DNA of 64,000 nucleotides from Planctomycetaceae bacterium (GTDB lineage Bacteria; Planctomycetota; Planctomycetia; Pirellulales; Pirellulaceae), in assembly GCA_027487485.1 (NCBI GenBank), contig JAIYDN010000107.1, positions 62,001-126,000 of the forward strand. The letters run 5' to 3'. How positions within the stretch are numbered: position 1 is the stretch's first letter; every line of letters starts with the position of its first letter. The notes beneath the pieces are model-generated. The model did no database searches, was not told the origin of the DNA, and worked only from the letters and a program-made list of their open reading frames with translations. Of this stretch, positions 1 through 41,960 are shown one piece after another. The translations under genes and the position numbers were made by a program.

Positions 1-645
1 GGAGCCGAGGACGCAAGAGAACACGCGACCGTCAGGCGACACTTGGCAATCGAGACTGACTTCCTGTGGTTGGAAGTTAGGAATCCGCTCGAGAGTTCCT
101 GTATCGAACAATTGAAGCCAATACTTGTTGTCATTCTTTACGATTAATCCGAGAGGTCCATTTCCATAGGCGCCAGCGAGGATATCAACGCACATGCCTT
201 TCCCGAAATCTCGGTGCTCAATCGTTAATTCGTGATTGAAAGTCTTCAGGTCGTATCTTGAAATTCTGCCGAGAAGTTTTGAAAGGAAAAACACTTTTGT
301 CGCCGTTCCAGCGACCCTTTCATCAAGAAAAGGTTCTTTGATTTGCATTTCGATTATCCGCAGTGTGGAAAAATCAAAAAGAAAGTGCGACCTTTGCTTT
401 CCAGCGAAAGCCAGAAATCGCCCTTTGCCCGCCAAGGATACTGACTGCCAAAAGTTTCCGTAATGAAGGTCAACGTTCAACCCACTTGATGAAAGTCGCT
501 TGACGGCAGCTTCTTTGTCATTTCCAACAGAAAGTTTTGCAAAAAACGGCAACGCAAGGAAAACCCAAAAAAACACGAGTCTTCGTTTCGATAACAATCC
601 CTCTTTAATGCGACTCTTCTCGCTTAGTTTTCTTTGTTCTGCCAT
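1..645 (-). CDS. Membrane-anchored or secreted beta-propeller-like protein (3' end outside window)
   Basis: The reading frame is open from an ATG at 645 to the window edge, giving 215 residues with the C-terminus missing. Residues about 20-42 hold a basic stretch followed by a hydrophobic segment (VFFWVFLALPFFAKL), a signal peptide or type II anchor. The rest is rich in short beta-strand blocks, including a late QVSPDGRVFSCVLG block of the WD40/YVTN type, so I infer a beta-propeller. It is divergent from the gene at 761, whose C-terminal half is similar in style. An alternative in-frame ATG at 687 would overlap a possible upstream start of that neighbour. No enzyme motif is visible and the function is unknown. 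Confidence 0.7.
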   Translation of the reverse strand, partial: MAEQRKLSEKSRIKEGLLSKRRLVFFWVFLALPFFAKLSVGNDKEAAVKRLSSSGLNVDLHYGNFWQSVSLAGKGRFLAFAGKQRSHFLFDFSTLRIIEMQIKEPFLDERVAGTATKVFFLSKLLGRISRYDLKTFNHELTIEHRDFGKGMCVDILAGAYGNGPLGLIVKNDNKYWLQLFDTGTLERIPNFQPQEVSLDCQVSPDGRVFSCVLGS

Positions 646-760
646 ATCGACGGTCGCCAATAAACCATTTGCATCAGATTGAAGCATGATATTACACTAT
701 TGCGAATCGCATTGGAACGAGCCATATGCGCGATGCTCCCAAATCGAATCGAAACAAAAC

Positions 761-3598
761 ATGGAAAGAAGTGAAGATTCTGAGGCAAATAGTCCCGGTG
801 TGCCGGACTTGCAAGATCTTGATTTTCAAGAATATCATGTCGCCCAGATACCGCTCACGCCCCGTCTAGTCGAAGAGCAGGTTGAGACAACGAACCCTTT
901 GAGAGAATTTTCGTTTTCCATTGGAGTAAAACAGCTCGCTGCGATTGCTTTAATAGGTGGTTGTGTGTTGCTGTTGTTCGTGGCGATCTTGAGTTACTTT
1001 GGAGCCGTTTTCTTTTGGTCCTTCGCTCCTTCCGAAGGCTATCTTTCGGATTCCTTGCCGAAGTTCGAAGTTGCGAATCAAACGGACGGAGAGTCTGGCG
1101 AATCGAATTCTTCTTCAAGCGACCATCTACCACAAAATGCAAATGAAGGTGCTATTCGTCCTGCTGGGAAAATCATTGACGATCGTGCGATGAGTGGCAA
1201 GGAAACAGATAAGCAAACAACTATCGTTTCGGAGATCGAATTGCCTCAACTACCAACGTTTGAACGCGAGGATTCTCCCGTAGCTTCCCCTGATCTGAAT
1301 GAATCGAAGGTACCTGAAAACGAGTTGGCCTTGACGGACTCGTTGTCGAAGCGAATTAAGAATGCGATTGTGACCGTTAACGGCAGGTTTGGCCCAATGG
1401 CTGGGCTCTTAGTAGCCAAGATAGACAAAACGGGCTACGTCGTAGTATCAGATCGTATAGTTGAGTTCAAGCCTGCAACGGGTACGCCTCTAACTTGTTA
1501 CTTCGGTCATGAGTCACGCCAAGTGTTCTCTTGCGAATGCAAAGCCGATGGTTTGCGAACCTATGGAGGTCTATGCATTCTATGCATCACACATGAGAAT
1601 CTCCCTGAACCCGTCGATCTGGAATCAGTTGCTTCGCCCAGCGAGGGGCTCGCGGTGAAGGTGTTGGCCCTTCAGAATGACTTTTACGCTGGTGAAAGGC
1701 TAGTTGACTCCGGAAGTATCCCAGAGATTCCTTGCTCGATTCTGAAAACTAAATCCGATAGTGCGGGGGTGGTCGAACGAATTCAATTAAGTCAATTGAT
1801 TGACCACCGCTATTCAGGAGGAGCTGTTGTTGACAACGATGGGAAATTGGTCGGTATCGCATTTCCGAGCTCGATTGACAATAACGGCAAAGTCCTTCGT
1901 GATTTGGTCGTGCCGCAAACAACTATTTCAACAATGTTGCAAGGAACTGTCGCCAGCGATTTCGGTGGGATGGATAAGTACAACAATCCTGATGGAGTTG
2001 GGTTGCAAGCAGACCTCATTGATCCGTATGGCCGTATCCAGTCCGTCATGGCGATTGTTTGCGAAAAGGAATCGTTACCTCCCGATTGGAACGATCGCAC
2101 TCCGGAGCTGATAGCTGGACCAGGCATTTTGAGTTGCGAGCTAGAAATTCAACGAATTACAAAGCAGCCTAGTGCCGCCAACTCACTGAAGTTAGTGCTT
2201 GGCGATAAGGAACTGTTTTATCAAATTCAGATTAAACGGTCGGATGGTTCAACGCAGTGTTACCCCATATCCAAGTTCCTCAAGGACAAGCCTCATTTTG
2301 AAAGCAAACGATTCGATTGGACAGCTCCTGAAGAGGTGAATTCGCAAACGCCCCCAAGGCCTTGTCTGATCACTTCCCAGGCCAACACCGTTGCTCAGTT
2401 GGGTCGATTTCATGCTGACTGCGAATCGCTTCTTCCTTTCTTGGCAATATCCAGCGATAACGACCACCTCTTTGTTGGCAGTAAGGAAGGTACAATCATC
2501 GCGTTTTCTACCGAGGATAGAAGCGAAGTTGCCCGTCACGTGTTGAGTGGGCCTTGCATATTCTTCGGCCTGTCTAAAGCAGGATTAGTGGCGGTGAATA
2601 AGAATGCAGTTACCGTCCTCAATACAAACAATCTCCAAACAATAAGAAAATTCGCTGTCGCGGACGTGGGTGAACTGGCATGCAATCCCAATTGCGATTG
2701 GGCATACTTTCTGCGCCACGATGACTCTAAGTTGATAGCCATATCGTTAAACTCGGGAGATGTCTTTCCGTTTGAAGAAAAGATCGATGTCGAGCTGAAG
2801 TTTCCCGTACTTTCCAACGATGGAAGGTATCTTGTTGCCTTCAACGGACGATTCGACGATTGTGTTCGATATCGTATCGATGGGAACAAACTAAAATTGG
2901 TCCAAAGAACTTCAGAGATTCATCCAAGTATTCGAAAAGTGGCTATGTTCTCGGTTTTCGGACATAGAGCATTGCCCGTCGATAATCGTCAGGAAAATCA
3001 GAAATCGACGCCGATACCGCTTGATTCTTTCGAGCAATCCGCTTCCAGTACGAAGACTGGCGAGCACTCCGCTCCGGGCTTTGGCGTTTTAGACCCAGTT
3101 ACCGATCGAATCTACGGGAATCGGCCTGAATCATCGAATCAACCATCGTTGACCGTTTGGTCGAGTCAGACCGCTGAAAGCACTTACTCTCTCGCGGGAC
3201 AGGAGCATTACCGCAGCCGGGATGACGGTATCAAGACGATCATCGCCCATCCAAAAGGAAATCAAGTAGTTGTTTTGACCAATTATCAGTTGTTGTCCCT
3301 TATATTGGGAGAAACAAGCAACAAGTCAACGGATGCTACGTCGAACAGCAGCGAAGTTAACTCGGCAAAGAGTGTCGTAAGTATTCCATTGCCTATTACC
3401 AAAGAATTGCCGAATTCATCCTCCGTAATTCGAACATGGAAAGACAAATCGGGGCTTTTTGAAGTCGATGCGAAAGTGGTAGAAGTCGATCAAACTGGCG
3501 TTGTACTTTTGGAGCGAGCGAACGGATCACAGGTCGAGATTGATCTTGATCAGCTTAGCGAATCAGACCAGCTGCTTATCAATAGCATGCGTCGCTAG
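761..3598 (+). CDS. Membrane protein: degenerate trypsin-like domain, beta-propeller, SHD1 domain
   Basis: A 945-residue protein if started at the ATG at 761 (MERSEDSE); an in-frame ATG at 686 adds 25 atypical residues. An acidic cytoplasmic tail precedes one membrane segment (around LAAIALIGGCVLLLFVAIL, residues 60-85) and a linker. A trypsin/HtrA-like fold follows, with YSGGAVVDNDGKLVGIAF matching the block around the catalytic Ser. The strand where HtrA proteins carry TNNHVV reads VVSDRIVEF, so the catalytic His is missing. Next come WD40-like blocks (AISSDNDHLFVGSKEGTIIAF). The end (RTWKDKSGLFEVDAKVVEVD to LDQLSESD) matches the SHD1 domain common in planctomycetes. Inferred role: non-enzymatic binding or sensing at the envelope. 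Confidence 0.75.
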   Translation: MERSEDSEANSPGVPDLQDLDFQEYHVAQIPLTPRLVEEQVETTNPLREFSFSIGVKQLAAIALIGGCVLLLFVAILSYFGAVFFWSFAPSEGYLSDSLPKFEVANQTDGESGESNSSSSDHLPQNANEGAIRPAGKIIDDRAMSGKETDKQTTIVSEIELPQLPTFEREDSPVASPDLNESKVPENELALTDSLSKRIKNAIVTVNGRFGPMAGLLVAKIDKTGYVVVSDRIVEFKPATGTPLTCYFGHESRQVFSCECKADGLRTYGGLCILCITHENLPEPVDLESVASPSEGLAVKVLALQNDFYAGERLVDSGSIPEIPCSILKTKSDSAGVVERIQLSQLIDHRYSGGAVVDNDGKLVGIAFPSSIDNNGKVLRDLVVPQTTISTMLQGTVASDFGGMDKYNNPDGVGLQADLIDPYGRIQSVMAIVCEKESLPPDWNDRTPELIAGPGILSCELEIQRITKQPSAANSLKLVLGDKELFYQIQIKRSDGSTQCYPISKFLKDKPHFESKRFDWTAPEEVNSQTPPRPCLITSQANTVAQLGRFHADCESLLPFLAISSDNDHLFVGSKEGTIIAFSTEDRSEVARHVLSGPCIFFGLSKAGLVAVNKNAVTVLNTNNLQTIRKFAVADVGELACNPNCDWAYFLRHDDSKLIAISLNSGDVFPFEEKIDVELKFPVLSNDGRYLVAFNGRFDDCVRYRIDGNKLKLVQRTSEIHPSIRKVAMFSVFGHRALPVDNRQENQKSTPIPLDSFEQSASSTKTGEHSAPGFGVLDPVTDRIYGNRPESSNQPSLTVWSSQTAESTYSLAGQEHYRSRDDGIKTIIAHPKGNQVVVLTNYQLLSLILGETSNKSTDATSNSSEVNSAKSVVSIPLPITKELPNSSSVIRTWKDKSGLFEVDAKVVEVDQTGVVLLERANGSQVEIDLDQLSESDQLLINSMRR

Positions 3599-3666
3599 TT
3601 GCCAAACCCATTCTGCGACTATCGACAGATCCGTTCTGCTGACCGACTTGGATCCAATGATATACC

Positions 3667-3943
3667 ATGATTTTCAAGACAAAACTTGATGTAAACCCGG
3701 CATCGCTAACGAATGATTCGCTTGATCTGGAATGTGAAATCCAAGTCAACTTAAACTATCGCCTATGTGATCAAGGACGTCCAATATCTGAAACAATTCG
3801 ACCTGTCTAAACTCGGTAAGAGAACCGTTGATCAGGCGGTTGAAATGATCGAGAAATTGCATCATGAATCCACTGCAGGCAATTACGCAACCAGTGGTTG
3901 CGGCCCTTCGGTCGGTATCATGCTCTGCTTGCCAATGTATTAG
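3667..3943 (+). pseudogene. Small gene broken by a single-base frameshift, family unknown
   Basis: An ATG at 3667 opens a frame reading MIFKTKLDVNPASLTND onward. From about 3761 a second frame, offset by one base, continues as AYVIKDVQYLKQFDLSKLG to a TAG at 3941. Dropping one A from the TTAAACT run at 3751..3757 joins them into one protein of about 91 residues (junction EIQVNLTIAYVIKDV). Both halves have normal protein composition, which favours one ancestral gene over two chance frames. I do not recognise the family. A sequencing error at the A run would give the same picture. Confidence 0.4.
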
Positions 3944-3966
3944 GGGCGAAGTCGGTTAGTAACGAG

Positions 3967-6900
3967 TTAACCAGGATGGATTCTTTCCCAGCGTTTGGCT
4001 CGTTCAAGGGTCTTTACGAAGATGGCTTTATTCAGGCTTGATGGAAAGGTTTCTGATTGCCTAAGCCGACTTAATTGACTGGCTAGTTTAGCCGCCTTGG
4101 ATTTGTCTCCCAGTGGAGTTAACCGCTCGCGAATACTGGGGGTTATTTCCGCACCAAGCGTCATCGCGCTTTCAAGCATCTGGGCTAGGATCAAGTGGAT
4201 GTCACTCGGCAGTTCGGGCGATGTTTCGATGTATCGCGCAAGCGTTTGAAGCACGATCCAATGATGTAACGGTGAAACTTGGGCGGCTTCGTTGAAGGCC
4301 TTGAGCGTGCGATTCAGTTTCAAGTAACTTTGGCAGCCAGCCATCGCCTCTCCAAGCCGTTCTGGAATGACCAGCAGACGCTCGATGGCTTCGATCAGCG
4401 CATCCAGAGCTGCAATTCGAGTTTCATTGCGGTCATTGGACGTCGCGAGCAGGCATAATCGACAGGCTTCGCTTGACCAAGTTGCCTCGGGATCAAATAG
4501 GTGAGCCATGTGCCCAGCTAAACAGCTAGCCTCGGTATCCATCGGGTTCGCCATCGCTTCCCACGAGTTGACCCATTGGTGGTCCAACAAGTTTGGATCG
4601 AAGGATGAAATAGAAGTCGGATTGGTTGAAAGTGCCTTTTCGGCAAGAGAAAAAGGAACCGTAGGGTCGTCTGTCAGGGCTCCGTCCACAGAGATAATTT
4701 GTTGGTCATCGATCTTGGCTCGCGCGATCGGTAATCTTGGCGTGTAATGCGAGTCTGCTAACGAAATGACTCGCGCACGTTCCGCCGCGATCATGACCGC
4801 TTCAATTCCCCAGCCTCCATTATTGGAAAGCTCGCAATCGTCCCCCAGGGCATACCGTAACGGGACGCCTCCGTTGTAGTGATCTGGCTCGCCAAGCATC
4901 CCAAGCGCATCGCTTCGTCCATCTGGTGTCAATCGAAGTATTGCTTGGGCTAAATCGTAATGACTTGGTAACTCACGGTGTTTCGCATAGCTGCTGTTAA
5001 GACGCTCGACCAAAATCACTGGATCGAGCCACCCACCCTTGTGAGTGGGCAACGCTAACATGGGCATTGGCGCGTCTGGTCGTCGAGCGTACGGGTTCCG
5101 GGACTCAACCAAATTGTTTTGGATGCTGCTGATTCTTTCGCGTAGAAACCAACCTCGCATGTTATACCAATGAACCGTGCTAGTTCGCGCTATTGTTGGC
5201 AAACCCAGCCAAGCCATAAGCAACTGGGGAAAGCCAATATTGATACTATAGTACAGCACTTCTTGATTATGGTTCTCGGCGCGGTTTGCAATGCGTTGTC
5301 GAAGTGCTCCAACTCGTAAATCAAAATCGTCCGGTCTCTCGTTATGGAAACGGCAGATTCCATCGAGCACTCGCTCTAAGTCCATGATGTCACTGATTTG
5401 CTCAATGACGGACGAAACCAAGGCAATCAATTCGTCTAGTGACTGAACTGGCTTGATCTGGCAGGAAGGATCGCATCGCGGCGCAACATGTTTGTCTAGT
5501 GGATGAACCATGGGCTGGGCGTTATTGTTCAGCGCAGCAAGGGCCGCATTTAGTTGCGATTGGTGGCGAAGCATTTCGGGAAGAGCCGAGGCTTGCTTGA
5601 GCAGTTCGCTATCGGTTGTTACTGCGTCACGGATTGCATGCTCCGTTTTTGACTCGGACGAAGGATTCGATTTCGATTTTGCCCGAGGGGAGGCTGATTT
5701 ATCGACAGACGATTTTGGTGCCACGTTTCCTTGGAGGCAAGACTGCAGCAGCATATCTAATTTCGGTCGAACGGCGACTGCAACGCCTTCTTTCATGCTC
5801 GCTAACTCGTTCGCGTCTTCTTGATCGATCAACTTGTGGTTGGACTCAAGTACGGCGATCGCTTCTGCTTGTATGTCCGCGTTGGAGTGTCGAATGGCTG
5901 GTATGATCGCTTTCACTGCTTTGGGTTTGCACTCTGGTAACTGCTTCATGAGTTTCACAGCCAACTTCAGCGCGGCACTCGGTTGAGATTTTTTGTCGAC
6001 TAAAAACGCATTGGGCATCGAATCCAAATAAGAGTCAGCATCGAGCCGATTCGCTGTCTGGAGTTTTGAAATCGCATTCAAGGCGTTGCTAACGACGGTG
6101 GAATTGCTGGAGGCTAGCAGTTGCAGGTACTGGTCGACCAGTAACACTCTTTCTTCTAACGTCGGTTCGAGCATCTCGTGAAATTTCCCAAAACCGCTCA
6201 GTGTGGTCGGCGCGAGCGGCAGAGTCATCCCATCGAGGCTTCGCTTCAAGAGCCGCATACGGTCTAGTTTGCCGTCTTGACTGAATTCAATCAGTGCTGT
6301 CCCCCATTCCTTTAATCGATAACGAAATGCGTCGGAATCGATATCAAACAATCGCCAGATATCGTGTTCCAACAATTCAAGATCAGCTGCAATCAGTTCC
6401 TTGATCGATCGAAAGGATTCGGGTTCCGTATCATCAGAAAGTTCTTCAGCTTCTGCTGCGTCGATGTGGGTAGAGTACGAAAAAAAAGGAAATACGGCTG
6501 CCATCCGAGCGTAGTACTCGGGCGAATCATTCGAGGGCAACGCACCGGCGCGGATGAGCCCTCGTTCAACGTACCAGTTCGGTATTGGGTACTCATTCCG
6601 CCATTCCTTCTCCAGCCACTTTCCAAGCCAAGGTGGTCTTCGCGCCGCAAGAACCTTCAGGATCTGATGTGGCATGTCCTGCAAATCGGTGCGAGACCAT
6701 CCACAGGACGCGTCTGTGCTTTCCAAGAAGCGTTGATCGCAAAGCGCTACTGCCATCAATTGAGCTGCCCAACGTGGGCAACGCCAATCACGATAGGTTT
6801 GCTCTTTGATCGTTTTCATCAGTTCCAAAATCTCGTCGCGGTCTGGCTCTTCGGTCGGTATTGCGTCGGCCTTAAATCCTGGACTCCAGTAACGATTCAA

Positions 6901-7062
6901 CCAATAGCAGAGCTTTGCTGCGTAACCGGACAGCGGAGTACGTTCTGCTTCTGTCATTGAAGCGAGCGCGTTACACATCGCTGCGGAATCGCCTTGGATC
7001 ACAAGTGTTTTCAAATCAACGGTCGTTAAGGTGGGCGTTACGGTGGGCGTTACGGGGGGCAT
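3967..7062 (-). CDS. DUF6493-like large helical repeat protein, partner of the SWIM gene
   Basis: A 1031-residue soluble protein with no signal peptide. The middle (roughly residues 300-440) is made of HEAT-like helix pairs (ALNAISKLQTANRL, AIIPAIRHSNADIQAEAIAVLESN). A charged, low-complexity Ser/Lys linker lies near 460-490. The C-terminal half has LPTHKGGWLDPVILVERL and DALGMLGEPDHYNGG, which I associate with the DUF6493 family from memory. The start overlaps the end of the SWIM gene by 13 bp, so the two are probably translationally coupled. The N-terminal TPTVTPT stretch comes from a 12-bp repeat (GTGGGCGTTACG) near 7030. Known context: SWIM and such repeat proteins occur in predicted MoxR/VWA conflict systems. 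No MoxR or VWA gene is adjacent here. Confidence 0.7.
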   Translation of the reverse strand: MPPVTPTVTPTLTTVDLKTLVIQGDSAAMCNALASMTEAERTPLSGYAAKLCYWLNRYWSPGFKADAIPTEEPDRDEILELMKTIKEQTYRDWRCPRWAAQLMAVALCDQRFLESTDASCGWSRTDLQDMPHQILKVLAARRPPWLGKWLEKEWRNEYPIPNWYVERGLIRAGALPSNDSPEYYARMAAVFPFFSYSTHIDAAEAEELSDDTEPESFRSIKELIAADLELLEHDIWRLFDIDSDAFRYRLKEWGTALIEFSQDGKLDRMRLLKRSLDGMTLPLAPTTLSGFGKFHEMLEPTLEERVLLVDQYLQLLASSNSTVVSNALNAISKLQTANRLDADSYLDSMPNAFLVDKKSQPSAALKLAVKLMKQLPECKPKAVKAIIPAIRHSNADIQAEAIAVLESNHKLIDQEDANELASMKEGVAVAVRPKLDMLLQSCLQGNVAPKSSVDKSASPRAKSKSNPSSESKTEHAIRDAVTTDSELLKQASALPEMLRHQSQLNAALAALNNNAQPMVHPLDKHVAPRCDPSCQIKPVQSLDELIALVSSVIEQISDIMDLERVLDGICRFHNERPDDFDLRVGALRQRIANRAENHNQEVLYYSINIGFPQLLMAWLGLPTIARTSTVHWYNMRGWFLRERISSIQNNLVESRNPYARRPDAPMPMLALPTHKGGWLDPVILVERLNSSYAKHRELPSHYDLAQAILRLTPDGRSDALGMLGEPDHYNGGVPLRYALGDDCELSNNGGWGIEAVMIAAERARVISLADSHYTPRLPIARAKIDDQQIISVDGALTDDPTVPFSLAEKALSTNPTSISSFDPNLLDHQWVNSWEAMANPMDTEASCLAGHMAHLFDPEATWSSEACRLCLLATSNDRNETRIAALDALIEAIERLLVIPERLGEAMAGCQSYLKLNRTLKAFNEAAQVSPLHHWIVLQTLARYIETSPELPSDIHLILAQMLESAMTLGAEITPSIRERLTPLGDKSKAAKLASQLSRLRQSETFPSSLNKAIFVKTLERAKRWERIHPG

Positions 7063-8438
7063 TGTGCTTCACTTTCTTGTTTCATTCGAGCTGCTAAAAT
7101 GTGTTTGCAAGGCCCTCGTTCACTTTGATGCTTGCTGTACCAAACGCAAGTGCATCGATCGTGGTCGTCGGACAATAGTACAAGATGCTGTGTTCCGCTG
7201 CCTTGAACCATCCATTCCGATTGGTTGTCCGAAATTACTTTGTGCTGATGGACGGCATCTTCTTTCACTAGCTTTCTTGCTGCTAGCAGGCGTGGTTGTA
7301 AAGATTCTATCAAGTCCAATTGAAACGGAAGTTCGCGGTGGTAGTAGCAACCATTCGAAAGATCGAATCCCACAAGACCGCGTGTTGCCAGCGCGTCCAG
7401 CGCACCGCAGATCTCGTGCTTCGGTAATCCAAACTTGGTCGATAGTGTATTGGGATCGATTGAACCCTGCCAATTCAGATAGGATTTGACATGATCAAAC
7501 GCATTCTGCCAGTTTTCGCTGGCCAATGCACTCAGTACTTGTCCTTCGCCCGAAAAGCCGCGATACAATTCTGGGCTGAGTGCGATCTGGAACTGGCTGG
7601 TCGCTAGGTCGAGGCACCAGACGCTAACGCCTGATTGGAGATCGCTCCAAATGGTTGCTTCGCCCTTCCCGTGTCGCAAAAGCGGCTCGATCGAGCGCAG
7701 TCGTTCCGTTCCAGAAATGCAGATCGCATTGTCAGACTTTCGGCTGGTAAGTCGTAACGATCTGCCAGCTGAAATAGCCCAAATGGCCTCCGTGCGAGCT
7801 GCGTTTCGTGGCAAAGCGCGAATGAATTGAAGCAATTGACTGACAGGCATGGACGTCACGCGAGTTGCTTTCGATAGGTACGCTTGCACTTCGCAAAAAC
7901 CGCGAATCCAACGTAACGGAAGCTTTACCTTCTTCTCGATGTACTCTTGTTGATCAACGTGGACTGCGACCTGTTGTGCGCCAATCGAGAGCCGAACGTT
8001 TTGCGAAGCGCGAATTCTTGCCAAGCTGTTTCGCAAAGGATCATTGATGTCGATGTTGGTTGTGCCGCGTCCTGTGATTGGCTTGCGAAACGCAGATTCT
8101 TGAAACACAGCTTGGACATAGACTCCAACGCAGCCACTGAAACCTTCAAACCGAAGGGTGCCCTCCCCGCAGGTAACAACGGGGTCCAGCAAACCTGCTT
8201 TGGGAAGAAAGAAATGGGTCCGGACGATATTCGCCAAGCATAACAAGGACTCGGCAAAGGTCACCGGATCGACCAGCGTCGCATCTAAAAACTGAGGATG
8301 GGAATCGACGCTGGAGGTGGCTAGCCGAAGGAAGGGTTCATTGGGATTTGAATCCGCAATGTTGCTTGGATGGGCGTATCGATAAGTATAGTCTAAGCTC
8401 TGTAAGCTCATGTCGTTAAGCCTGCCCAACCGAGCCAT
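7050..8438 (-). CDS. SWIM zinc finger protein
   Basis: A 462-residue soluble protein whose C-terminus holds the SWIM zinc-binding pattern: RCTCVWYSKHQ, then GPCKHILAARM, giving CxC...CxH. SWIM domains bind zinc and are thought to contact nucleic acid or protein. The rest is mixed alpha/beta with a central RSLRLTSRKSDNAICISGTERLRS stretch broken by short strands. It is the first gene of a two-gene unit with the DUF6493-like gene. The start at 8438 (MARLGRLND) was used; an internal Met at 8411 (MSLQSLDY) is an alternative. The SWIM motif is clear; the biological role is inference, possibly defence or protein quality control. Confidence 0.8.
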   Translation of the reverse strand: MARLGRLNDMSLQSLDYTYRYAHPSNIADSNPNEPFLRLATSSVDSHPQFLDATLVDPVTFAESLLCLANIVRTHFFLPKAGLLDPVVTCGEGTLRFEGFSGCVGVYVQAVFQESAFRKPITGRGTTNIDINDPLRNSLARIRASQNVRLSIGAQQVAVHVDQQEYIEKKVKLPLRWIRGFCEVQAYLSKATRVTSMPVSQLLQFIRALPRNAARTEAIWAISAGRSLRLTSRKSDNAICISGTERLRSIEPLLRHGKGEATIWSDLQSGVSVWCLDLATSQFQIALSPELYRGFSGEGQVLSALASENWQNAFDHVKSYLNWQGSIDPNTLSTKFGLPKHEICGALDALATRGLVGFDLSNGCYYHRELPFQLDLIESLQPRLLAARKLVKEDAVHQHKVISDNQSEWMVQGSGTQHLVLLSDDHDRCTCVWYSKHQSERGPCKHILAARMKQESEAQCPP

Positions 8439-8508
8439 CGTTTGCGGAGATACGTGTTTCCATAATGCATAGGACCGCAGTTGCTCAATCGCATGTCATG
8501 AGTAACCA

Positions 8509-8793
8509 CTAAAGGAATGGAAACTCATGGTCGCCGCGTCGAATGCGAACGATTTCCAAAGTCCCATCTTTTTCGCGGAAGAAGATGATGTAGCTTCCGA
8601 CGTAAGTCGAAGGAATACCGTCGCCAAGATCGCTTCGATCGTCACCGATGCCAGGGTGTTTCGCAGCTAAGCGGTACTTTGCACGAATTTTCTCAACCCA
8701 TTGTCTTGCGGCAAAAGGCTTGTCTTTGGCGATAAAGCGCACGATCTCGTTCAAATCATCCTTCGATAGGGCAGAGTATCGGAGGCTCAGCAT
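8509..8793 (-). CDS. ParE/RelE-superfamily toxin
   Basis: A 94-residue protein with the ParE layout: an N-terminal strand (LSLRYSALSKDDLNEIVRFI), two helices with AARQWVEKIRAKYRLAAKHPGIGDDRSDL, then C-terminal strands ending SYIIFFREKDGTLEIVRIRRGDHEF. Family members either poison DNA gyrase (ParE) or cut mRNA (RelE), and sequence alone does not decide which. The HPGIGDDR and VRIRRGDH blocks are typical of chromosomal ParE-like toxins. It lies 3 bp downstream of the antitoxin gene, the usual antitoxin-first order. Nothing looks truncated. Confidence 0.85.
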   Translation of the reverse strand: MLSLRYSALSKDDLNEIVRFIAKDKPFAARQWVEKIRAKYRLAAKHPGIGDDRSDLGDGIPSTYVGSYIIFFREKDGTLEIVRIRRGDHEFPFL

Positions 8794-8796
8794 TGG

Positions 8797-9045
8797 CTAT
8801 CCTCGATTGCTTGACGATTCAATTCGTCTGAGTTCGGCCTCAATTTCATCGAAAACAGCGTCTTCATCCAACGACTCACCACGATCGAGTTGGTCTACAC
8901 CTGCAGCGATTTTCTCTCGAAGTTCCTCTCGGCTTTTTAGTAATCGGATTCCATCAACGACCGCATCTTCTTCCGATTGGTATTTGCCTTGGGCTACAAG
9001 GCTCCTCACAAAATCGTTCGCTTCGACGGGCAAATTCAAATTCAT
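8797..9045 (-). CDS. ParD-like antitoxin
   Basis: An 82-residue protein if started at the ATG at 9045 (MNLNLPVEANDFVRS), chosen because a GGAGA lies about 10 bases upstream. The N-terminal strand and following helices (VRSLVAQGKYQSEEDAVVDG, IRLLKSREELREKI) match the ribbon-helix-helix antitoxins paired with ParE. The acidic C-terminal tail (LDEDAVFDEIEAELRRIE) would be the toxin-binding segment. Such antitoxins usually repress their own operon, so an operator is expected just upstream of 9045, though no clear palindrome is visible there. Confidence 0.82.
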   Translation of the reverse strand: MNLNLPVEANDFVRSLVAQGKYQSEEDAVVDGIRLLKSREELREKIAAGVDQLDRGESLDEDAVFDEIEAELRRIESSSNRG

Positions 9046-9256
9046 CGCTTGTCTCCACTGCAACCGGGATATCCAACACTATTCTGTAACCTGGCCGAGA
9101 GAGGTCAGATGGACGTACATATTGTAATTCCGACGCATTGGTGACGTCCATTGCCTACTCCCCCCTTGATGTCACAAAATGGGGAAAAGACGGCTAAGTA
9201 ATACGGCTGGAATCTAAAGGTCTCGTTGAACTAGCATATCATTTCTGGCGTGCCGT

Positions 9257-9290
9257 GCCGTAACTGAGTCCAAAGCGACTTGTTACGGCC
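9257..9290. repeat. GCCGTAAC palindromic repeat, short copy
   Basis: GCCGTAACTGAGTCCAAAGC followed by GACTTGTTACGGCC forms an imperfect palindrome with ends GCCGTAAC and GTTACGGC. The same block is the right half of the larger repeats at 26365, 27178 and 27438, where it reads CTGCGTCCAAAGCGACTTG in its centre. It lies in the gene-free stretch 9046..9731 together with a DUF1697 relic and a 72-bp palindrome. No coding potential. Confidence 0.8.
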
Positions 9291-9320
9291 AACGACTGCC
9301 GCCGGCGGTCAACTGGAACG

Positions 9321-9373
9321 GTGCCAACAACCGGACATAACTGCGCAACCATCCACAAATAATCTGACATGCT
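9321..9373 (+). pseudogene. Relic of a DUF1697 gene 3' end
   Basis: Read from 9321 the DNA gives VPTTGHNCATIHK, a stop, then SDML. The intact DUF1697 gene downstream ends VPTTARNYTTIHNLSEML, so these are the same segment at different stages of decay. The bases just upstream (GGTCAACTGGAACG) also match the intact gene (CAACTGGTCTTGAACG) with small deletions. The DNA after both copies stays similar for about 200 bp, through the 72-bp palindromes. This marks an old tandem duplication whose first copy is lost apart from this tail. Confidence 0.65.
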
Positions 9374-9497
9374 AGTTCTTGGACGACCTCTACTTTCGGG
9401 ACTAGAGCAAGCGTGTGATTCAACATGACTGCTAAGATGTTACAAAATTTTGCGATGTCGACTCGGGTAGTTATCCGAAAGGTGAGAAATGGTTTCG

Positions 9498-9569
9498 GTC
9501 GAAATATGTGGGGCGAAAGATAGTTCGCTGGAGTAAAGTTCTAAAATTTTTCGACCCACATTTTTCGAC
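9498..9569. repeat. 72-bp palindromic element, copy 1
   Basis: The left arm GTCGAAATATGTGGGGCGAA and right arm TTCGACCCACATTTTTCGAC are imperfect inverted repeats around an AT-rich core. The same structure, 72-73 bp long, occurs at 10369, 38955 and 41817. The right flank, ACTGTTTTGGGAAGAAG and then CTCGGGCTCGCC, is shared with copy 2. No transposase gene lies beside any copy, so it resembles a non-autonomous MITE or a REP-type element. Confidence 0.8.
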
Positions 9570-9731
9570 AGACTGTTTTGGGAAGAAGAAAAGCGACGCT
9601 CGGGCTCGCCCCGAATGTCGCACAAAGGATTGGCGTGCTAGTTGCATGTGCTAATTGACCGAGCTATGTTGCGTCCCGGCCTCGGCCGCAGCAAATTCAA
9701 TCCACCAGAAATCTTCTCACGCTTACAACTG

Positions 9732-10271
9732 ATGCAAACCTGGATCGCTCTATTCCGCGGAATCAATGTCGGCGGCCGAAACAAGATGCCGATGGCGGTT
9801 CTTGCTAGGACGCTTGAATCTGCAGGCTGCCTTTCCGTACGTACTTACATTCAGAGTGGCAATGTCGTCTTTGTGTCTTCTTTGAGATCCAAGCTTAACC
9901 TTTCTAAGAGACTCGAAGACGCTACCGAGGCCCAGTTTGGTTTTCGACCAAACATTTTTCTGCAGACGGATACTGACTTTCGCTCTGCCATCACTAACAA
10001 CCCGTTCACAGACGCGATACTCGAACCCAAGACTCTCCACTTCTTCTTTCTTGATTCCAAACCGGACTCGCCGAACATCAAAGGTATTGCTGAACTCGCA
10101 AGTCCCTCTGAACGTTTCCAATTGACTGATACTGTGTTTTATTTGCACGCCCCCGATGGTTTCGGCCGCTCGAAACTCGCAACTGGTCTTGAACGCAAGC
10201 TCGGCGTGCCAACAACCGCTCGTAACTACACCACAATCCACAACCTGTCCGAGATGCTAAACGTCGACTGA
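9732..10271 (+). CDS. DUF1697 family protein
   Basis: A 179-residue cytoplasmic protein starting at the ATG at 9732 (MQTWIALFRGINVGGRNKMP), the usual N-terminus of DUF1697 proteins. An upstream in-frame start at 9642 would add 30 untypical residues. Family hallmarks are RGINVGGRNKMPM, TYIQSGNVVF and the C-terminal GRSKLATGLERKLGVPTTARN. The family is widespread and uncharacterised, with a ferredoxin-like fold. A decayed copy of its 3' end lies upstream at 9321, and 72-bp palindromes sit on both sides, so the gene occupies a duplicated, repeat-bounded segment. Confidence 0.88.
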   Translation: MQTWIALFRGINVGGRNKMPMAVLARTLESAGCLSVRTYIQSGNVVFVSSLRSKLNLSKRLEDATEAQFGFRPNIFLQTDTDFRSAITNNPFTDAILEPKTLHFFFLDSKPDSPNIKGIAELASPSERFQLTDTVFYLHAPDGFGRSKLATGLERKLGVPTTARNYTTIHNLSEMLNVD

Positions 10272-10368
10272 TCGATACCCGTTGCAATCCCATGTGAAGC
10301 CAAACGGCGTCACCCACCTTGCGATCCCCTGCGGGTGTTCAAGGTCGGATAGATGTGGAATGGTTGTT

Positions 10369-10440
10369 GTCGAAAGATGTGGGGCGAAAAATAGTTCGAA
10401 GAAATAAAGTTCTAGAATTTTTCGACCTTCATTTTTCGAC
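10369..10440. repeat. 72-bp palindromic element, copy 2
   Basis: The arms GTCGAAAGATGTGGGGCGAA and TTCGACCTTCATTTTTCGAC flank the core AAATAGTTCGAAGAAATAAAG. It begins about 100 bp after the DUF1697 stop, as copy 1 follows the DUF1697 relic. The following 120 bp share ACTGTTTTGGGAAGAAG, CGGGCTCGCCTCGAATGTCG and GGTTTGGCGTGC with the DNA after copy 1. The rest of 10272..10687 holds no gene I can support. Confidence 0.8.
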
Positions 10441-10687
10441 AGACTGTTTTGGGAAGAAGGAAAAATAGGTACGTCTCTTCATCGAACTTTGGCTACAGCG
10501 CCGTTCGGGCTCGCCTCGAATGTCGCAAAAGGTTTGGCGTGCAAGTTGACGGACATTTTTGATGATGGCTCGGATGGCGATGCAATTCGAGAGTGCCTTG
10601 AAGCGTCCGAGCGGATATACTCTTGGCGACGAGCACGAGCACGAAATTGCTCGATAGCCATTTGATGTTTGCATGAAGGACTACAAC

Positions 10688-11263
10688 ATGAAAGCTGTAA
10701 TTGTTGCGTTCGATCGGTTCACGGATGTTGATGTGTTTTTGCCATGGGACCTATTGAATCGCGTTCGTTTCCGCGACAAAGAATTTAGCGTTAGAATTGT
10801 AGGTCCATCAAAGACTCACAGATCCGTTTGTGGTCTTGAGTTGCCGATGCACGGAGGAATCGAAGAATGCAATCATGCTGATCTCGTATTCTTCGCCAGT
10901 GGACCGGGGACTCGCGAGCTCATCAAGGACGAACATTTCTTGAAGCAAGTACGACTCGATCCAGACCGCCAAATCATTTGTTCCATGTGTTCGGGTGCTT
11001 TGATTCTTGCTGCGCTAGGAATTCTGGAGGGTGTTTCGGCGACTACCTATCCCACCGCCGTCGACGAGTTGAGGGGCTTTGGCGTTGAAGTGGAGACGAC
11101 GAAGCACTTGGTTACCCATGGAAACATTGGTACTGCAGCTGGATGTCTCGCTGCCGTTGACCTGATGGGATGGGCAATCGAAAAACTGTATGGCCCAGAG
11201 ATACGGAAGGATGTAATTGCGTCGGTTTTGCCCGTGGGGCAAGGTCAGGCTTGTATCTATTGA
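10688..11263 (+). CDS. DJ-1/PfpI superfamily protein (isonitrile-hydratase-like)
   Basis: A 191-residue protein from the ATG at 10688 (MKAVIVAFDRFTDVD). It has the class I glutamine-amidotransferase-like fold of DJ-1/PfpI proteins: an N-terminal strand, DLVFFASGPGTRELI, and the nucleophile elbow ICSMCSGALILAA with Cys at about residue 101. The TDVDVFLPWDLLNR start resembles isonitrile hydratases and the ligand domains of AraC-type GATase-like regulators. No DNA-binding domain is attached. Roles in this superfamily range from hydratase and chaperone to deglycase, so the substrate is open. Confidence 0.8.
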   Translation: MKAVIVAFDRFTDVDVFLPWDLLNRVRFRDKEFSVRIVGPSKTHRSVCGLELPMHGGIEECNHADLVFFASGPGTRELIKDEHFLKQVRLDPDRQIICSMCSGALILAALGILEGVSATTYPTAVDELRGFGVEVETTKHLVTHGNIGTAAGCLAAVDLMGWAIEKLYGPEIRKDVIASVLPVGQGQACIY

Positions 11264-11384
11264 GATGGGAACAAAGCCTGGAAACGTTTGGTTCTGGTTT
11301 GCCGTTCGAACTTTTGCTCGTAGAAGACGTATTCCATTCCTGATAGACTACTAAAACAAAACCACCTTCGAGCTGGAGAGAAAA

Positions 11385-11930
11385 ATGTCTCGTTTCATGA
11401 CAGCGGTCGTAATTCTTGTTTTGCTTTTCTCTGCTTCTCGATTGTTTGCAATTGATGTATGCCTGGTCAATGACTCTGAGCGTACGACCGTCATTACCGT
11501 GATCTCTGGCTCGGACCGCTTTGAAAAACGTTTAGAGCCGAAATCACATGCATTTGTTGTCCTCGCGGATACCAAAGACGATCGAGTCGTAATCGCTCAA
11601 ACGGTTGAAGAGTCGATCTCTGGCAAGGTAAGCTCGTCGATGAAAGTGGTGGACACGAAGGTCCTTTCAGATCATGTGAACCGCTTGAACTTTTGCTACG
11701 TGCATGGAAGCGAAGCAGAAGGGCTTCGGATGGATCTACTTGCATTCGTTTGCTTGGATATTGTCCCGTATCGATGGGGAAAAGAACCTGCCGAAGATGA
11801 ACGATTCCCTCAGCTAAAGGCAGAATTGGTGAAGAGCCTAAGGAGCACAACAGAAGTCGATCCGAAGTCGAATGCAAATTTGAAGAAGTTTGTCCATCAA
11901 TTCTCGCTCGCTGAGCGTAACAAAGATTAA
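11385..11930 (+). CDS. Secreted protein of unknown function
   Basis: A 181-residue protein with a clear signal peptide (MSRFMTAVVILVLLFSASRLFA, cleavage near 22). The mature part starts with a compact beta region (IDVCLVNDSERTTVITVISG) and ends in a charged helix (LKKFVHQFSLAERNKD). A GGAGAG lies about 10 bases before the start, a good ribosome site. It lies 28 bp before the membrane thioredoxin gene and is probably co-transcribed with it, so it may be a client or partner in the periplasm. I do not recognise a domain. Confidence 0.75.
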   Translation: MSRFMTAVVILVLLFSASRLFAIDVCLVNDSERTTVITVISGSDRFEKRLEPKSHAFVVLADTKDDRVVIAQTVEESISGKVSSSMKVVDTKVLSDHVNRLNFCYVHGSEAEGLRMDLLAFVCLDIVPYRWGKEPAEDERFPQLKAELVKSLRSTTEVDPKSNANLKKFVHQFSLAERNKD

Positions 11931-11958
11931 TGGGCATTGACCCAAGGAAAAAGCTAGC

Positions 11959-22253: not shown

Positions 22254-22385
22254 TTCGAGTCAAGCTCCAGTTCACAAAGAGGAATCAGCGTCAAGAAGTC
22301 AGCAAATCACAGTCGCCGGACCCATTCCATTGCAATCCGGGCGAGCCCTAGTCTAGCCTACCTCGCCACCGTAGTCACTCCGACC

Positions 22386-22616
22386 GTAGTGGACGAGGCA
22401 ACGAGTCCCGGCTGTTTCGTAGTGGACGAGGCGACGAGTCCCGTCTGTTTCGTAGTGGACGAGGCAACGAGTCCCGTCTGTTTCGTAGTGGACGAGGCAA
22501 CGAGTCCCGTCTGTTTTGTAGTGGACGAGGCAACGAGTCCCGTCTGTTTTGTAGTGGACGAGGCGACGAGTCCCGTCTGTTTTGTAGTGGACGAGGCGAC
22601 GAGTCCCGGCTGTTAC
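22386..22616. repeat. 33-bp tandem repeat array, seven units
   Basis: Seven units of 33 bp (GTAGTGGACGAGGCAACGAG then TCCCGTCTGTTTC) run head to tail with only a few substitutions. A degenerate eighth unit starts at 22617 (GTATTCAACGAGGC). There are no spacers, so this is not a CRISPR. Because 33 is divisible by three, both strands stay open and give repeated-peptide frames (VVDEATSPVCF on plus) that I judge spurious. Related units occur inverted at 35377..35595. The array fills the centre of the gene-free stretch 22254..22861; the rest holds nothing I can assign. Confidence 0.92.
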
Positions 22617-22861
22617 GTATTCAACGAGGCTATCAGGCACGGTTTAACAGCGCCTCGTTCTGGAAAACCCCAGAAAACCGGTTAACTTCCTTGGACACTA
22701 CATATTCTTCGGACGAGATTTCAGTAAAATGGATGGTGACTATCGATGGGCAAGGCCGACTCGTTGCAATGATGCAGGGTTGCTATTTCGACTAATTTGA
22801 TGGGGATAGTGCATCGAGATCCACGAAGACTCAATCGTGGTTCTTCGAGGAACAATTTGGC

Positions 22862-26364: not shown

Positions 26365-26620
26365 GCCGCGCGAACGTAGGCCGTAACAAGCGCTAGCGCA
26401 GTTACGGCAGTCCCGTCCGAATCCCATTGCCCCATCGAACAAGTCGGCCATGCCTAGCCCGCCATGCCGTAACTGCGTCCAAAGCGACTTGTTACGGCCT
26501 ACGGCAGAGCGTCAGCTAAACAATGTAGAACAGTTGTCCTCAACTGTTCAGAAGCTTGCAAAGGCATTCCATCCCGGTTCACATCTGGTGGCACTCGACG
26601 CTCGATTCAATTGGAAGAGC
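26365..26620. repeat. GCCGTAAC palindromic repeat, long copy A2
   Basis: From 26376 the DNA reads GTAGGCCGTAACAAGCGCTA and then GCGCAGTTACGGC; a second GCCGTAAC...GTTACGGCC palindrome ends near 26500. After it, GAACAGTTG TCCT CAACTGTTC (26528..26549) is a perfect 9-bp hairpin. The whole block of about 250 bp recurs nearly unchanged at 27178..27430. It directly abuts the stop of the cytochrome gene. No coding potential. Confidence 0.88.
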
Positions 26621-26809
26621 GTTGTCGCGTGAACGCAACGATGCATTGACTCAATAGGAAATCAGCAAATTGCTTTTTGATTAACGCATGAATTTAGGTA
26701 TCGGCAGAGCAAGTGCAAAACAAACTTAGTGAATCGCGTCCAGTTATTCAAAATGGGGCATATGGTTCTTCGTTGTTTTGAGTGAACTGTAATTGAACGA
26801 AAGCATGGA

Positions 26810-27184
26810 ATGGCGATGAGAACTTCTCAGGTCACGTTCACGGAATTTCTTGTGCTTTCGTGCCTTGTTGCACTCGGCGCGCAGGCTTGGATGCTTTTTC
26901 CAAATTATGGTCCCGCTTTTGTTTTGTTGGCGGCCTGGTTAATACTTTTTTTGAGATTTGGTTTCCACAAACAAGTTAGTACGAGTGTCATTCAGGCTCT
27001 AATCGTATTGCTTGTGTTCTATGCTCGATTTCGAAAGGGTGCAGGCATGAACTGGTGGCTTACGCCGTATTTTCTTGCGGATGCGGCGTTCTATTCGTTG
27101 CTGCTTTTGCTACTTCATGTCGTATCGCTTAAGTTGATGCGATTGATGATTGCCAAGCGTTACTACCCAAGACCTAGGCCGTAA
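26810..27184 (+). CDS. Small multi-span membrane protein between two repeat copies
   Basis: A 124-residue protein, nearly all hydrophobic: helices near residues 10-27 (EFLVLSCLVALGAQAWML), 31-49, 58-72 and 88-115 (YFLADAAFYSLLLLLLHVVSL). The last codons, AGG CCG TAA, lie inside the GCCGTAAC repeat starting at 27178, so the repeat supplies the stop. It is flanked by two near-identical repeats about 800 bp apart, so recombination between them could delete it. No family recognised; it has a basic tail (RYYPRPRP). Confidence 0.65.
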   Translation: MAMRTSQVTFTEFLVLSCLVALGAQAWMLFPNYGPAFVLLAAWLILFLRFGFHKQVSTSVIQALIVLLVFYARFRKGAGMNWWLTPYFLADAAFYSLLLLLLHVVSLKLMRLMIAKRYYPRPRP

Positions 27185-27430
27185 CAAGCGAGTAGGCCGT
27201 AACAAGCGCTAGCGCAGTTACGGCAGCCCCGTCCGAACCGAATTGCCCCATCGAACAAGTCGGCCATGCCTAGCCCGCCATGCCGTAACGGCGTCCAAAG
27301 CGACTTGTTACGGCCTACGGCAAAGCGTCAGCTAAACAATGTAGAACAGTTGTCCTCAACTGTTTAGAAGCTTGCAAAGGCATCCCATCCCAATTCACGC
27401 GTGGTGGCACTCGATGCCAAATTCAATTTC
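27178..27430. repeat. GCCGTAAC palindromic repeat, long copy A3
   Basis: It starts within the last codons of the membrane gene (TAGGCCGTAACAAGCG, immediately repeated as GAGTAGGCCGTAACAAGCG). It then follows copy A2 almost base for base, including GTCGGCCATGCCTAGCCCGC, the hairpin GAACAGTTG TCCT CAACTGTT (27344..27364) and GAAGCTTGCAAAGGCAT. The right ends of both copies diverge after GTGGCACTCGA. Confidence 0.88.
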
Positions 27431-27437
27431 TACCGAA

Positions 27438-27575
27438 GGCCGTAACATGCGATAGCGCAGTTACGGCAGGCCCCGTTCGAATCGAATTGCCTCACCGAAC
27501 AAGTCAAGCCATACCTAGCACGCCAGGCCGTAACGGCGTCCAACGCGACTTGTTACGGCCTACGCGAGTAGGCCT
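27438..27575. repeat. GCCGTAAC palindromic repeat, copy A4
   Basis: GGCCGTAACATGCGATAGCG through CGCGACTTGTTACGGCC repeats the paired-palindrome part of A2 and A3 with more substitutions, and lacks the AACAGTTG hairpin part. It ends 12 bp before the stop of the minus-strand gene at 27587, so three repeats occupy nearly everything from 27178 to 27586. Confidence 0.85.
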
Positions 27576-35330: not shown

Positions 35331-35376
35331 TTGTGGCATGCATGGCACTGTCGCCTAGTCTATAACGTTGCTTCCC

Positions 35377-35595
35377 GTAGTGGATCTGGCTACAGATTCC
35401 GTACAACCAAAGGCATGGCCTCGTAGCCTCGTCCACTACAATGCATGCATGGCCTCGTAGCCTCGTCCACTACAATGCGTGCATGGCCTCGTAGCCTCGT
35501 CCACTACAATGCATGCATGGCCTCGTCGCCACGTCCACTACAAGTTGGTAGTGGATCTGGCCACAGATCCTGTAGTGGATCTGGCTACAGATCCC
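35377..35595. repeat. GTAGTGG repeat array, mixed orientation
   Basis: A unit GTAGTGGATCTGGCTACAGA at 35377 is followed by about four 34-bp units (ATGGCCTCGTAGCCTCGTCC then ACTACAATGCATGC) starting at 35415, 35449, 35483 and 35517. Two GTAGTGGATCTGG units follow at 35548 and 35572. The 34-bp units are the reverse complement of GTAGTGGACGAGGC, the core of the 22386 array, so both arrays belong to one family. The last unit overlaps the 3' end of the glycosyltransferase gene. Confidence 0.9.
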
Positions 35596-38433: not shown

Positions 38434-38954
38434 CCTTGATAGACCAATTTCAAATTCTCGGTGGGCACAAGAAATCCATTTCCCGTGCTATCATTCTGCT
38501 AACGAATTTTCTTTTGAGTCCTCGAACTTATCGACCAAAAGAAGCAATGAGTTGACCTGTAGCGGTCGTTCTCAATCTTCCAGGCTGTCGATGTTCCGCG
38601 TGTTCCGACTAGGTAATCTGTAACCCTTGTCTCACAGCCGCGGGCGCTTGCCCCGTTACCGATTCCGTGTATTTACTGAACCGCGGGCCCTAGTTTTAAT
38701 GTTTCGTGGTTTGGCATTCCATCATACTCGTACTCAATGAAATGGTACTCGTACTCGTACTCGAACCACGGTAGTCGATTACGGGAATCCACGTTTCCCA
38801 GGAGGTGGGTAATGGGATTCCAATTCTCGCAGCATCAAAGGGAGCGAGAAGACCAGTCCAGAAACCACGCAAGCGCAACGCGAAGGCGTGCCTTGTGCCA
38901 CTCCTTCGCAACAGGTTTGGCGCGCTAACGAGCACTACCATACCGAGAAGAGCC
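38434..38954. other. Gene-free stretch with short tandem repeats
   Basis: No frame here has protein-like composition. It holds a TACTCG microrepeat at 38725..38763 and, near 38865..38900, ACGCAAGCGCAACGCGAAGG with GCCTTGTGCC. A close match to the latter (CAACTGCAACGCGAAGG, GCCTTGGGCC) is found at 40298..40325, marking another dispersed repeat family. Confidence 0.6.
38725..38763. repeat. TACTCG short tandem repeat
   Basis: TACTCGTACTC, a nine-base interruption, then TACTCGTACTCGTACTCG. The six-base unit is repeated five times in all. It lies in a gene-free stretch and translates only to Tyr-Ser or Val-Leu runs. Confidence 0.75.
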
Positions 38955-39027: not shown

Positions 39028-39198
39028 AGCAGCCATTGCTCTTTGTTCAGAAATCAATCGCCCTATTGGGACACTTCGTTTTTGGTTTAGCTTGAGCCAA
39101 GATGTTTAGCCGACGATGTTTTGAGTCGATCAGGCAAGAGAGTCTATCGTTCCAAGTCTCATTCAACTTTCATTCGACCGAGTTCAGCATATTACGTA

Positions 39199-39789
39199 TT
39201 ACTGGACCGGCTTGCGGTAACTTTCTAACTCCGCCAACAGATCCTTCCCGCGGTTGTAGCCTCGCTCCTGGACAAGCTGGAGCAATCTCGCGGATTCTTG
39301 AATATCTTCTAAGTTAGCCTCGGACAACAAGTTTTTGATGTCAATTACATCCTGAGGGCGGCTAATCGGGTCTACCGACAGTACTTTGAGAGCCAATAAT
39401 CCAGATAGCGATGCCACAGGAATGGGAAGGTTATCAAAGACATCGATTGGCTCGGCCCCATTTACGATCTCCTGTTCGATACCCGAGGATGCAAAAAGTA
39501 GATCTACAAAAACGCTTCCCAGCGGGGCCTTGATCATCCGAACAGTGGCGATTCGTCCATGTTTAGTATGCTCAAGTAGCGTTTGCACTTGGAAACCATG
39601 GCTTGAAAGTTCACGAACGTAGTTTTCTGCCTCTTGGTCATTTTCAGCGGCAATCACTAGATCGATATCCTTTGTAAATCGCTCGATGGTTCTAAACGAA
39701 ACTGCCAAGCCGCCGATCAATGCATACCCTATCCGGCTTTCCGTGAGCCAGTTGACAACCTCTCGAGTTACCTGCTCGAGTTTTTGCAT
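39199..39789 (-). CDS. AbiEii-like nucleotidyltransferase
   Basis: A 196-residue protein with the minimal nucleotidyltransferase motif ALIGGLAVSFRT followed by FTKDIDLVIA: Gly 26-27 and the metal Asp residues 41 and 43. A later SVFVDLLFAS supplies the third acidic residue. This resembles the AbiEii/AbiGii toxin-type and MNT families, which add nucleotides to RNA or protein. Its start overlaps the partner gene by 22 bp, the usual toxin-antitoxin style arrangement. The cognate AbiEi regulator is not seen; the partner is of another type. Confidence 0.8.
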   Translation of the reverse strand: MQKLEQVTREVVNWLTESRIGYALIGGLAVSFRTIERFTKDIDLVIAAENDQEAENYVRELSSHGFQVQTLLEHTKHGRIATVRMIKAPLGSVFVDLLFASSGIEQEIVNGAEPIDVFDNLPIPVASLSGLLALKVLSVDPISRPQDVIDIKNLLSEANLEDIQESARLLQLVQERGYNRGKDLLAELESYRKPVQ

Positions 39790-40127
39790 GACTTGAACCT
39801 CTCTATGTCTCCGATGATGCCAACTCCGTCACCCATTTCCGCGCCAGGGCGATCTTGATACCATCCTCGAACGGCTTCCTCGATTTCCGTCATTGAAATA
39901 AGCGGGTTCATCTTTTTCAACTTATAAACAAATGCACGCTCACCGAGTTCGACAAGCTCCAGGATGGTTTCAAATTTTGTCGAGGGAGTGGTCAAGGGTT
40001 GTCCCTTTTTTGCTGTTGATTGAGGCGGATAGATTAGTGGGGTGTCGGTGTCACGACAGATCTCGATGCGAGCGATCGCTGTCTTTACGAAGTTCAATGA
40101 AGCTTTGTTCTGGTTGCACTCGAGCAC
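39768..40127 (-). CDS. Small partner of the nucleotidyltransferase, possible antitoxin
   Basis: A 119-residue frame opened by a GTG at 40127. The conserved part is C-terminal: FETILELVELGERAFVYKLK, ISMTEIEEAVRGWYQDRPGAEMGD. From memory this form (a helix pair, then a W...RPGAEHGD tail) recurs in small proteins encoded just before nucleotidyltransferases, so a linked function is likely. The first 50 residues are less protein-like, and the true start may be further in. The overlap with the next gene supports coupling. Confidence 0.6.
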   Translation of the reverse strand: MLECNQNKASLNFVKTAIARIEICRDTDTPLIYPPQSTAKKGQPLTTPSTKFETILELVELGERAFVYKLKKMNPLISMTEIEEAVRGWYQDRPGAEMGDGVGIIGDIERFKSCKNSSR

Positions 40128-40388
40128 TCACCTAGTATAGAACAGATGTCGCACAGCGATCTTTGGCTTTAGAGAAATTTCGACATAAGGGCCCCTCGAC
40201 AAGAACATGGTGGGGTACTCCACTCCTAATTCGATTTGAATCCAAAATGTCTACCCGGCTATGTTCTGAGTTTTTAGACACCAGACCAGAATCCAAGCAA
40301 CTGCAACGCGAAGGTAGGCCTTGGGCCCAGATTTTCCATGGAAACAGAATCACCTCCGGGAGGACTCAACGGTAAGAGATCCAGTACA

Positions 40389-41669: not shown

Positions 41670-41816
41670 TAGATGAGCAGTCATTAGCAATCAGACCTTT
41701 TGGGCTGCTCCGCTCTTGTTCTTCGGTCAGAATTGGGCTTAGTCGGACTTAGGCGCTTTAGGTAGAAGCGTCGCTTAGAAGTCGGGACAGTACGAACGAG
41801 AAGCCGGAAAGAATCT

Positions 41817-41888
41817 GTCGAAAAATGAGGGTCGAAAAATTTTCGAGCCTGTCTTGCGCCAAACATTTTTCGCCCCTCATTTTTCGAC
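41817..41888. repeat. 72-bp palindromic element, copy 4
   Basis: This copy has the cleanest symmetry: GTCGAAAAATGAGGGTCGAA on the left and TTCGCCCCTCATTTTTCGAC on the right, with CTGT and ACAG extending the arms outward. The core reads ATTTTCGAGCCTGTCTTGCG. It lies between the FG-GAP gene and the small membrane protein gene at 41961. Confidence 0.85.
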
Positions 41889-41960
41889 AGCAGTCATTCC
41901 ACTTTGTTCTGGAAACTAGCAACCTTGAAGGACCGTCCACACCTGAACGGTATGGAACGA

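Follow-up and report, generated by a model that had tools for sequence, protein, structure and literature searches.

In the stretch of DNA analysed here (64,000 nt, referred to as the window), an intact DUF1697 gene is preceded by a short piece that resembles its own end, and the same two repeats follow both in the same order. This raises the question whether one segment was duplicated and its first gene copy lost, or whether gene end and repeats came together by separate routes. The features concerned are the following.

9202-9293, plus strand: repeat B, decayed copy covering profile positions 36-127 of 127 (profile match, E 6e-19)
9321-9374, plus strand: DUF1697 gene-end relic with an in-frame stop (nucleotide alignment to 10206-10259; tblastn)
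9375-9470, plus strand: spacer from the relic to A1, without detectable homology to the spacer behind the gene (shuffle tests)
9472-9587, plus strand: palindromic repeat A, copy 1 (A1; profile match, E 5.6e-32)
9590-9643, plus strand: hairpin repeat C, copy 1 (C1; profile match, E 2.2e-16)
9732-10271, plus strand: intact DUF1697 gene, 179 amino acids (PF08002, E 4.8e-40)
10345-10458, plus strand: palindromic repeat A, copy 2 (A2; profile match, E 1.1e-26)
10492-10547, plus strand: hairpin repeat C, copy 2 (C2; profile match, E 1.9e-18)
10673-11263, plus strand: DJ-1/PfpI family gene (PF01965, E 1.8e-15)
26376-26502, 27192-27318 and 27436-27563: other repeat B copies in the window (profile matches)

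The Relic and the Intact Gene

The relic aligns without gaps to 10206-10259, with 41 of 54 nucleotides identical. Its global alignment score of 28 lies well above the maximum of 13.5 among 1000 shuffles, and its local score of 43 exceeds the best of 2000 shuffles (30). The encoded peptide VPTTGHNCATIHK*SDML pairs in frame with VPTTARNYTTIHNLSEML, residues 159-176 of the DUF1697 protein. At the protein level, tblastn gives E 6.4e-4 against a 732-base target; among 11 neighbouring genes used as controls the best E was 0.006, one gene's self-match excepted. The relic is a genuine DUF1697 gene end, as a preliminary description of this DNA had held. It scores higher against the DUF1697 gene of its own genome (local score 43) than against that of the relative G017 (30).

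Further pieces of the DUF1697 gene were searched for to the left of the relic and none were found. The relic had no match in the other 26 genomes of a 27-genome genus set, and none was found in the relative G002. The relic is truncated no more than 30 nt from where the repeat B copy at 9202-9293 ends. Further to the left, the minus strand carries a gene for a ParE-like toxin (8509-9063) with a likely antitoxin gene upstream; the toxin gene is kept in G004 and other relatives, with no adjoining relic in the matches seen.

The intact gene is read from the ATG at 9732, within a longest open reading frame that begins at 9642, and it is the sole DUF1697 match found in the source genome (G000). A solved relative of its protein, 2hiy, is titled 'Hypothetical protein'.

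What the Two Gene Ends Share

Both gene ends are followed by repeat A (A1 and A2 identical at 97 of 116 positions), by the flank ACTGTTTTGGGAAGAAG at both palindromes, and by hairpin C (C1 and C2 with 47 identities and 6 mismatches), which had been described behind the palindrome. Significant alignment thus exists outside the palindrome, in the gene end and in hairpin C. The intervening DNA behaves differently from these parts. A similar spacer, recognised earlier by the word TTGCGAT, is not borne out: 9375-9463 and 10260-10335 align no better than chance (582/1000 shuffles equal or better), a global test of 9375-9470 against 10260-10342 was matched by 125/1000 shuffles, and inclusion of the left edge of A left 119/1000 as good. 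Spacer homology between the two gene ends is therefore not supported. Behind C the two copies show no alignment either (376/1000 shuffles as good), and the gap from A to C measures 3 nt in copy 1 versus 34 nt in copy 2. What had been taken for some 300 bp of shared order is accordingly a gene end followed by members of two repeat families. The order is real; as proof of a duplication it fails, with spacers at chance level and A followed by C being a recurrent layout. Shared order carries little weight here, since both A and C are dispersed families and C frequently follows A.

Three Families of Non-coding Repeats

None of the repeats A, B and C is coding, and all lie outside the DUF1697 gene. 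An oriented pattern of A finds 47 sites in the 7.49-Mb source genome, and the reversed control pattern finds 0; since the pattern recovers 59 of 62 aligned copies, these 47 are near-complete rather than exact. Repeat B, a nested palindrome some 127 bp long, stands at no fewer than about 40 places (best 40 of 65 candidates). A separate first-look search covered the best 40 of 91 candidate places. Hairpin C occurs at at least seven sites, the query included, in a genome-wide search with 10464-11380 (best 18 of 61). Among the matches listed, five of these seven have A upstream; the other two lie on contigs C95 and C2, where the A pattern finds no A. A scored A lies within 250 bases upstream of C in 8/10 copies of the source genome and 1/5 copies of G002, at loci selected on the basis of A and B. 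In the source genome, C behind A is thus a repeated arrangement.

Within 44 aligned copies of the source genome, A1 and A2 are each other's closest match. When G002 copies are added, one of them narrowly overtakes A2 in closeness to A1 (0.86 vs 0.85), leaving A2 second. Similarly, C1 and C2 are mutual best (0.887) among the source-genome C copies compared, and the G002 copy of C from the corresponding place equals C2 in its closeness to C1. The A alignment holds 62 rows from 68 copies (four dropped for a short profile match, two more left out); of 25 B copies, the length filter left 20, and 18 of them entered the alignment.

A function as a structured RNA element finds no support for A and B: their arms carry no compensatory base changes (0/14 pairs in A and 0/24 in B with changes on both sides), and at gathering thresholds Rfam matches nothing in the window. 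A terminator role for A, tied to gene ends, was likewise rejected: with a simple, purpose-built hexamer gene caller, genes to the left of A (63 of 68 copies scored) run towards it in 39 cases and away in 24, a mild tilt. Four of the 68 copies lie inside a predicted gene. Most likely, A, B and C act passively, as homology stretches and hairpins where endpoints of recombination and deletion gather.

Other repeats occur in and around this material. The three B copies at 26376-27563 share one orientation, and the first two have 237 bases in common at 93%, with unique DNA enclosed. The motif TACTCGTACTC lies in a 43-nt segment (38722-38764) that has 90-100% matches in many genomes of the 27-genome genus set, some of them with several copies each, and is far more widespread than A. 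Two tandem repeat arrays (22320-22674 and 35336-35546) have periods of 33 and 34 bases, and in G020 (contig C27; locus L101, 2827-3091) four relatives of C stand head-to-tail with a period of about 70. No title on repeats A, B or C was found among the titles and abstract openings searched, and the print record may hold more.

Neighbouring Copies of A Are Same-Facing Sisters

Neighbouring copies of A within 10 kb form 18 pairs among the 47 sites; random placement on one line gave a mean of 2.8 and a maximum of 12 in 2000 trials. Orientation is the same in 18/18 of these pairs, a result equalled by 1 of 100,000 label shuffles, versus 7/11 for more distant neighbours. The pairs are also related by sequence, with a mean identity of 0.862 compared to 0.774 overall, which none of 10,000 random sets reached (16 of the 18 census pairs, in the set of 44 source-genome copies). 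Not every pair is close, for example that at 133569 and 134081 on contig C3. Predicted genes between paired copies occur in both orientations.

Shared flanking sequence is undetectable in 10 of the 16 local pairs. Hence A can double locally without its surroundings, and segment duplication is rejected as the general origin of local A pairs. Accordingly, it does not follow that the element predates the duplication at the DUF1697 gene or moved with it, as suggested earlier.

Comparison With the Relative G002

In a 40-genome set that includes the source genome, G002 is the only relative to match where the query holds A; for G016, G020 and G023, matches are confined to its C portion. Across a wider contig collection, where near kin of the source genome may be absent, the exact A pattern matched one record, most likely G002 itself. 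Collinearity of G002 with the window begins at 9562, within A1, and stops at 10195 with the end of the G002 contig. To the left of the counterpart of 9562 it has other genes (within L100:3916-6150), and this DNA has no match in the source genome at 1e-5. Conversely, 1-9561 and 10196-11935 of the window have no G002 match at 1e-25, in an assembly listed as 77% complete. Upstream of its DUF1697 gene, G002 shows the short A-C distance of copy 1, so the two A-C blocks would have differed before G002 split off.

We compared 22 G002 stretches with the source genome, which were chosen for carrying A, B or C and had no control set. Three of them (L179, L188 and L190) have flanks from non-neighbouring places of the source genome, joined at A or B; L188 and L190 are reciprocal junctions at B between contigs C22 and C40, and this reciprocal junction falls at the window's B cluster at 26376-27563. 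L186 is without an 8-kb source-genome segment that begins at one A and ends about 130 bases beyond a second, L182 is without 196 bases adjoining A, and L100 has its break inside A. L175 (with an extra A), L178 and L189 are collinear or nearly so across the repeat; L178 also has a 2.8-kb jump at a point with no scored A, B or C. The remaining 13 stretches have unique flank on one side only or none. Some rearrangement junctions between the two genomes therefore fall at A or B, as individual cases with no control set for enrichment.

Two further places concern the presence and absence of material at A. The extra A of L175 (1187-1281; G002 contig C506) lies 70 bases from a first copy and is absent at the matching place of the source genome (contig C82); it is flanked by a repeated word, a possible target-site duplication, that is partly repeated in the A-less site as well. 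For window positions 39119-41951, which lie between A copies of equal orientation at 38942 and 41804, G002 offers no match at 1e-25; 116 bases of this segment do match at 79%, at a place on G002 contig 201 that two A copies enclose.

Origin of the Site

At roughly even probability, we favour an old local joint duplication of the gene end and the repeats, later truncated beside B. Given the mutual-best A pair, the mutual-best C pair and the gene end, a joint duplication would be the most economical account, though short of proof. Either the end of the gene or the entire gene, together with the A-C block behind it, would have been duplicated in direct orientation before the split from G002, most simply through unequal recombination between same-facing A copies. 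Most of the first gene copy would then have been lost in a deletion ending near the B copy at 9202-9293, and the remaining scrap and its spacer would have decayed. That the relic resembles the local gene more than its G017 counterpart is consistent with this, as are the single DUF1697 gene found, the truncation near B and the junctions at A or B elsewhere. The earlier claim of a duplicated segment is hence supported in part, by the gene end and the sister repeats, and not by the spacer behind the gene end, where a simple segment copy predicts homology. The recurrence of A followed by C, the G002 copies of A and C that are as close or marginally closer to A1 and C1, and the flankless local pairs, which mean that A pairs need no segment duplication, also speak against a joint origin. 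No genome with two whole DUF1697 copies at the matching place was seen.

The same observations might be explained with no joint duplication at all. The relic would be the tail of a DUF1697 copy that is older or was acquired on its own, and an A-C composite, doubled locally, would have landed behind both ends. The non-homologous spacers, the recurrent A-C composite, the local A pairs without shared flank and the second A of G002 C506 all fit such a course. It would, however, need a second DUF1697 source in a genome with one such gene, and the relic is nearer to the DUF1697 gene beside it than to that of G017. We regard this course as possible, with a probability clearly below that of the joint duplication.

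G017 could point to a different history. There, DUF1697 and DJ-1 are also neighbours on one strand, in the opposite order (DJ-1, then DUF1697), and the DUF1697 gene has an internal deletion. Both genes might once have formed a longer tandem row with different survivors in each species, the relic being the end of an earlier unit. Yet 9000-9731 was searched for a DJ-1 scrap and none was seen, the DNA retrieved around the DJ-1 loci of G024 and G015 shows no DUF1697 match, and a translocation would equally give the swapped order, which makes such a row unlikely. A 45-nt direct repeat at the G017 DUF1697 gene was considered as a private duplication of its 3' flank and rejected, as more copies occur in the 319 kb of G017 examined.

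A broader reading, which overlaps with the joint duplication, the separate arrival of the repeats and the tandem row, takes A, B and, in G017, a further repeat D as sites where accessory genes are captured, lost and reordered as units bounded by same-facing repeats. Such an integron-like system, with sites other than attC, would be driven either by an unknown recombinase or simply through homologous recombination between the repeats, and the scrap would be a by-product of one exchange. We hold this reading to be improbable. The reading is kept alive mainly because of D, a different palindromic repeat of about 190-245 bases with four copies on one strand of the G017 contig that carries DUF1697 and DJ-1 (L193; positions 1152, 1949, 3256 and 4760). 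These sit between plus-strand open reading frames taken for genes, two of which were confirmed by similarity. The G017 palindromes contain a motif that resembles TACTCGTACTC.

Finally, a chance resemblance of the relic, which could appeal to its 54 nt and its modest protein-level E value in a 732-base target, is very improbable with nucleotide scores that 0/1000 and 0/2000 shuffles reached.

Comparison With Known Systems

A pseudogene scrap alone is ordinary. Less so is the surrounding pattern: the palindrome, about 100 bp long, has close neighbours that are same-facing sisters around unique genes, and it lies at several junctions between the source genome and G002. If confirmed with controls, this pattern would explain part of the fluid gene order in Pirellula-like planctomycetes and would provide a site at which gene gain and loss independent of attC could be tested.

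In integron cassette arrays, as at A, accessory genes lie between same-facing palindromic sites. The attC core boxes have the consensus RYYYAAC and GTTRRRY. Neither box is present in any of the 62 A copies, and in B one box occurs in 3/18 copies and the other in 1/18, never both in order (0/18). We therefore reject A and B as integron attC sites; furthermore, and unlike cassettes, the genes enclosed by A face both ways.

REP/BIME and MITE-like repeats resemble A in being short, non-coding, mostly intergenic and palindromic, with tens of copies. They differ from it in arrangement: adjacent A copies point in one direction without exception, and unique genes lie between them. Presence and absence at one site between relatives, as known for MITE-like elements, is seen for A in one case (G002 C506 vs source-genome C82).

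Tandem duplication with a pseudogenised copy differs from the present site in one respect: the stretch from gene end to repeat is not kept here, and continuous homology through the spacer is not visible. In other respects the likeness holds. The repeat block behind the intact gene has a second copy, next to which a truncated gene end lies, the gene ends are homologous (41/54 nt), and the two repeat copies are closest to each other among the 44 A copies of the source genome.
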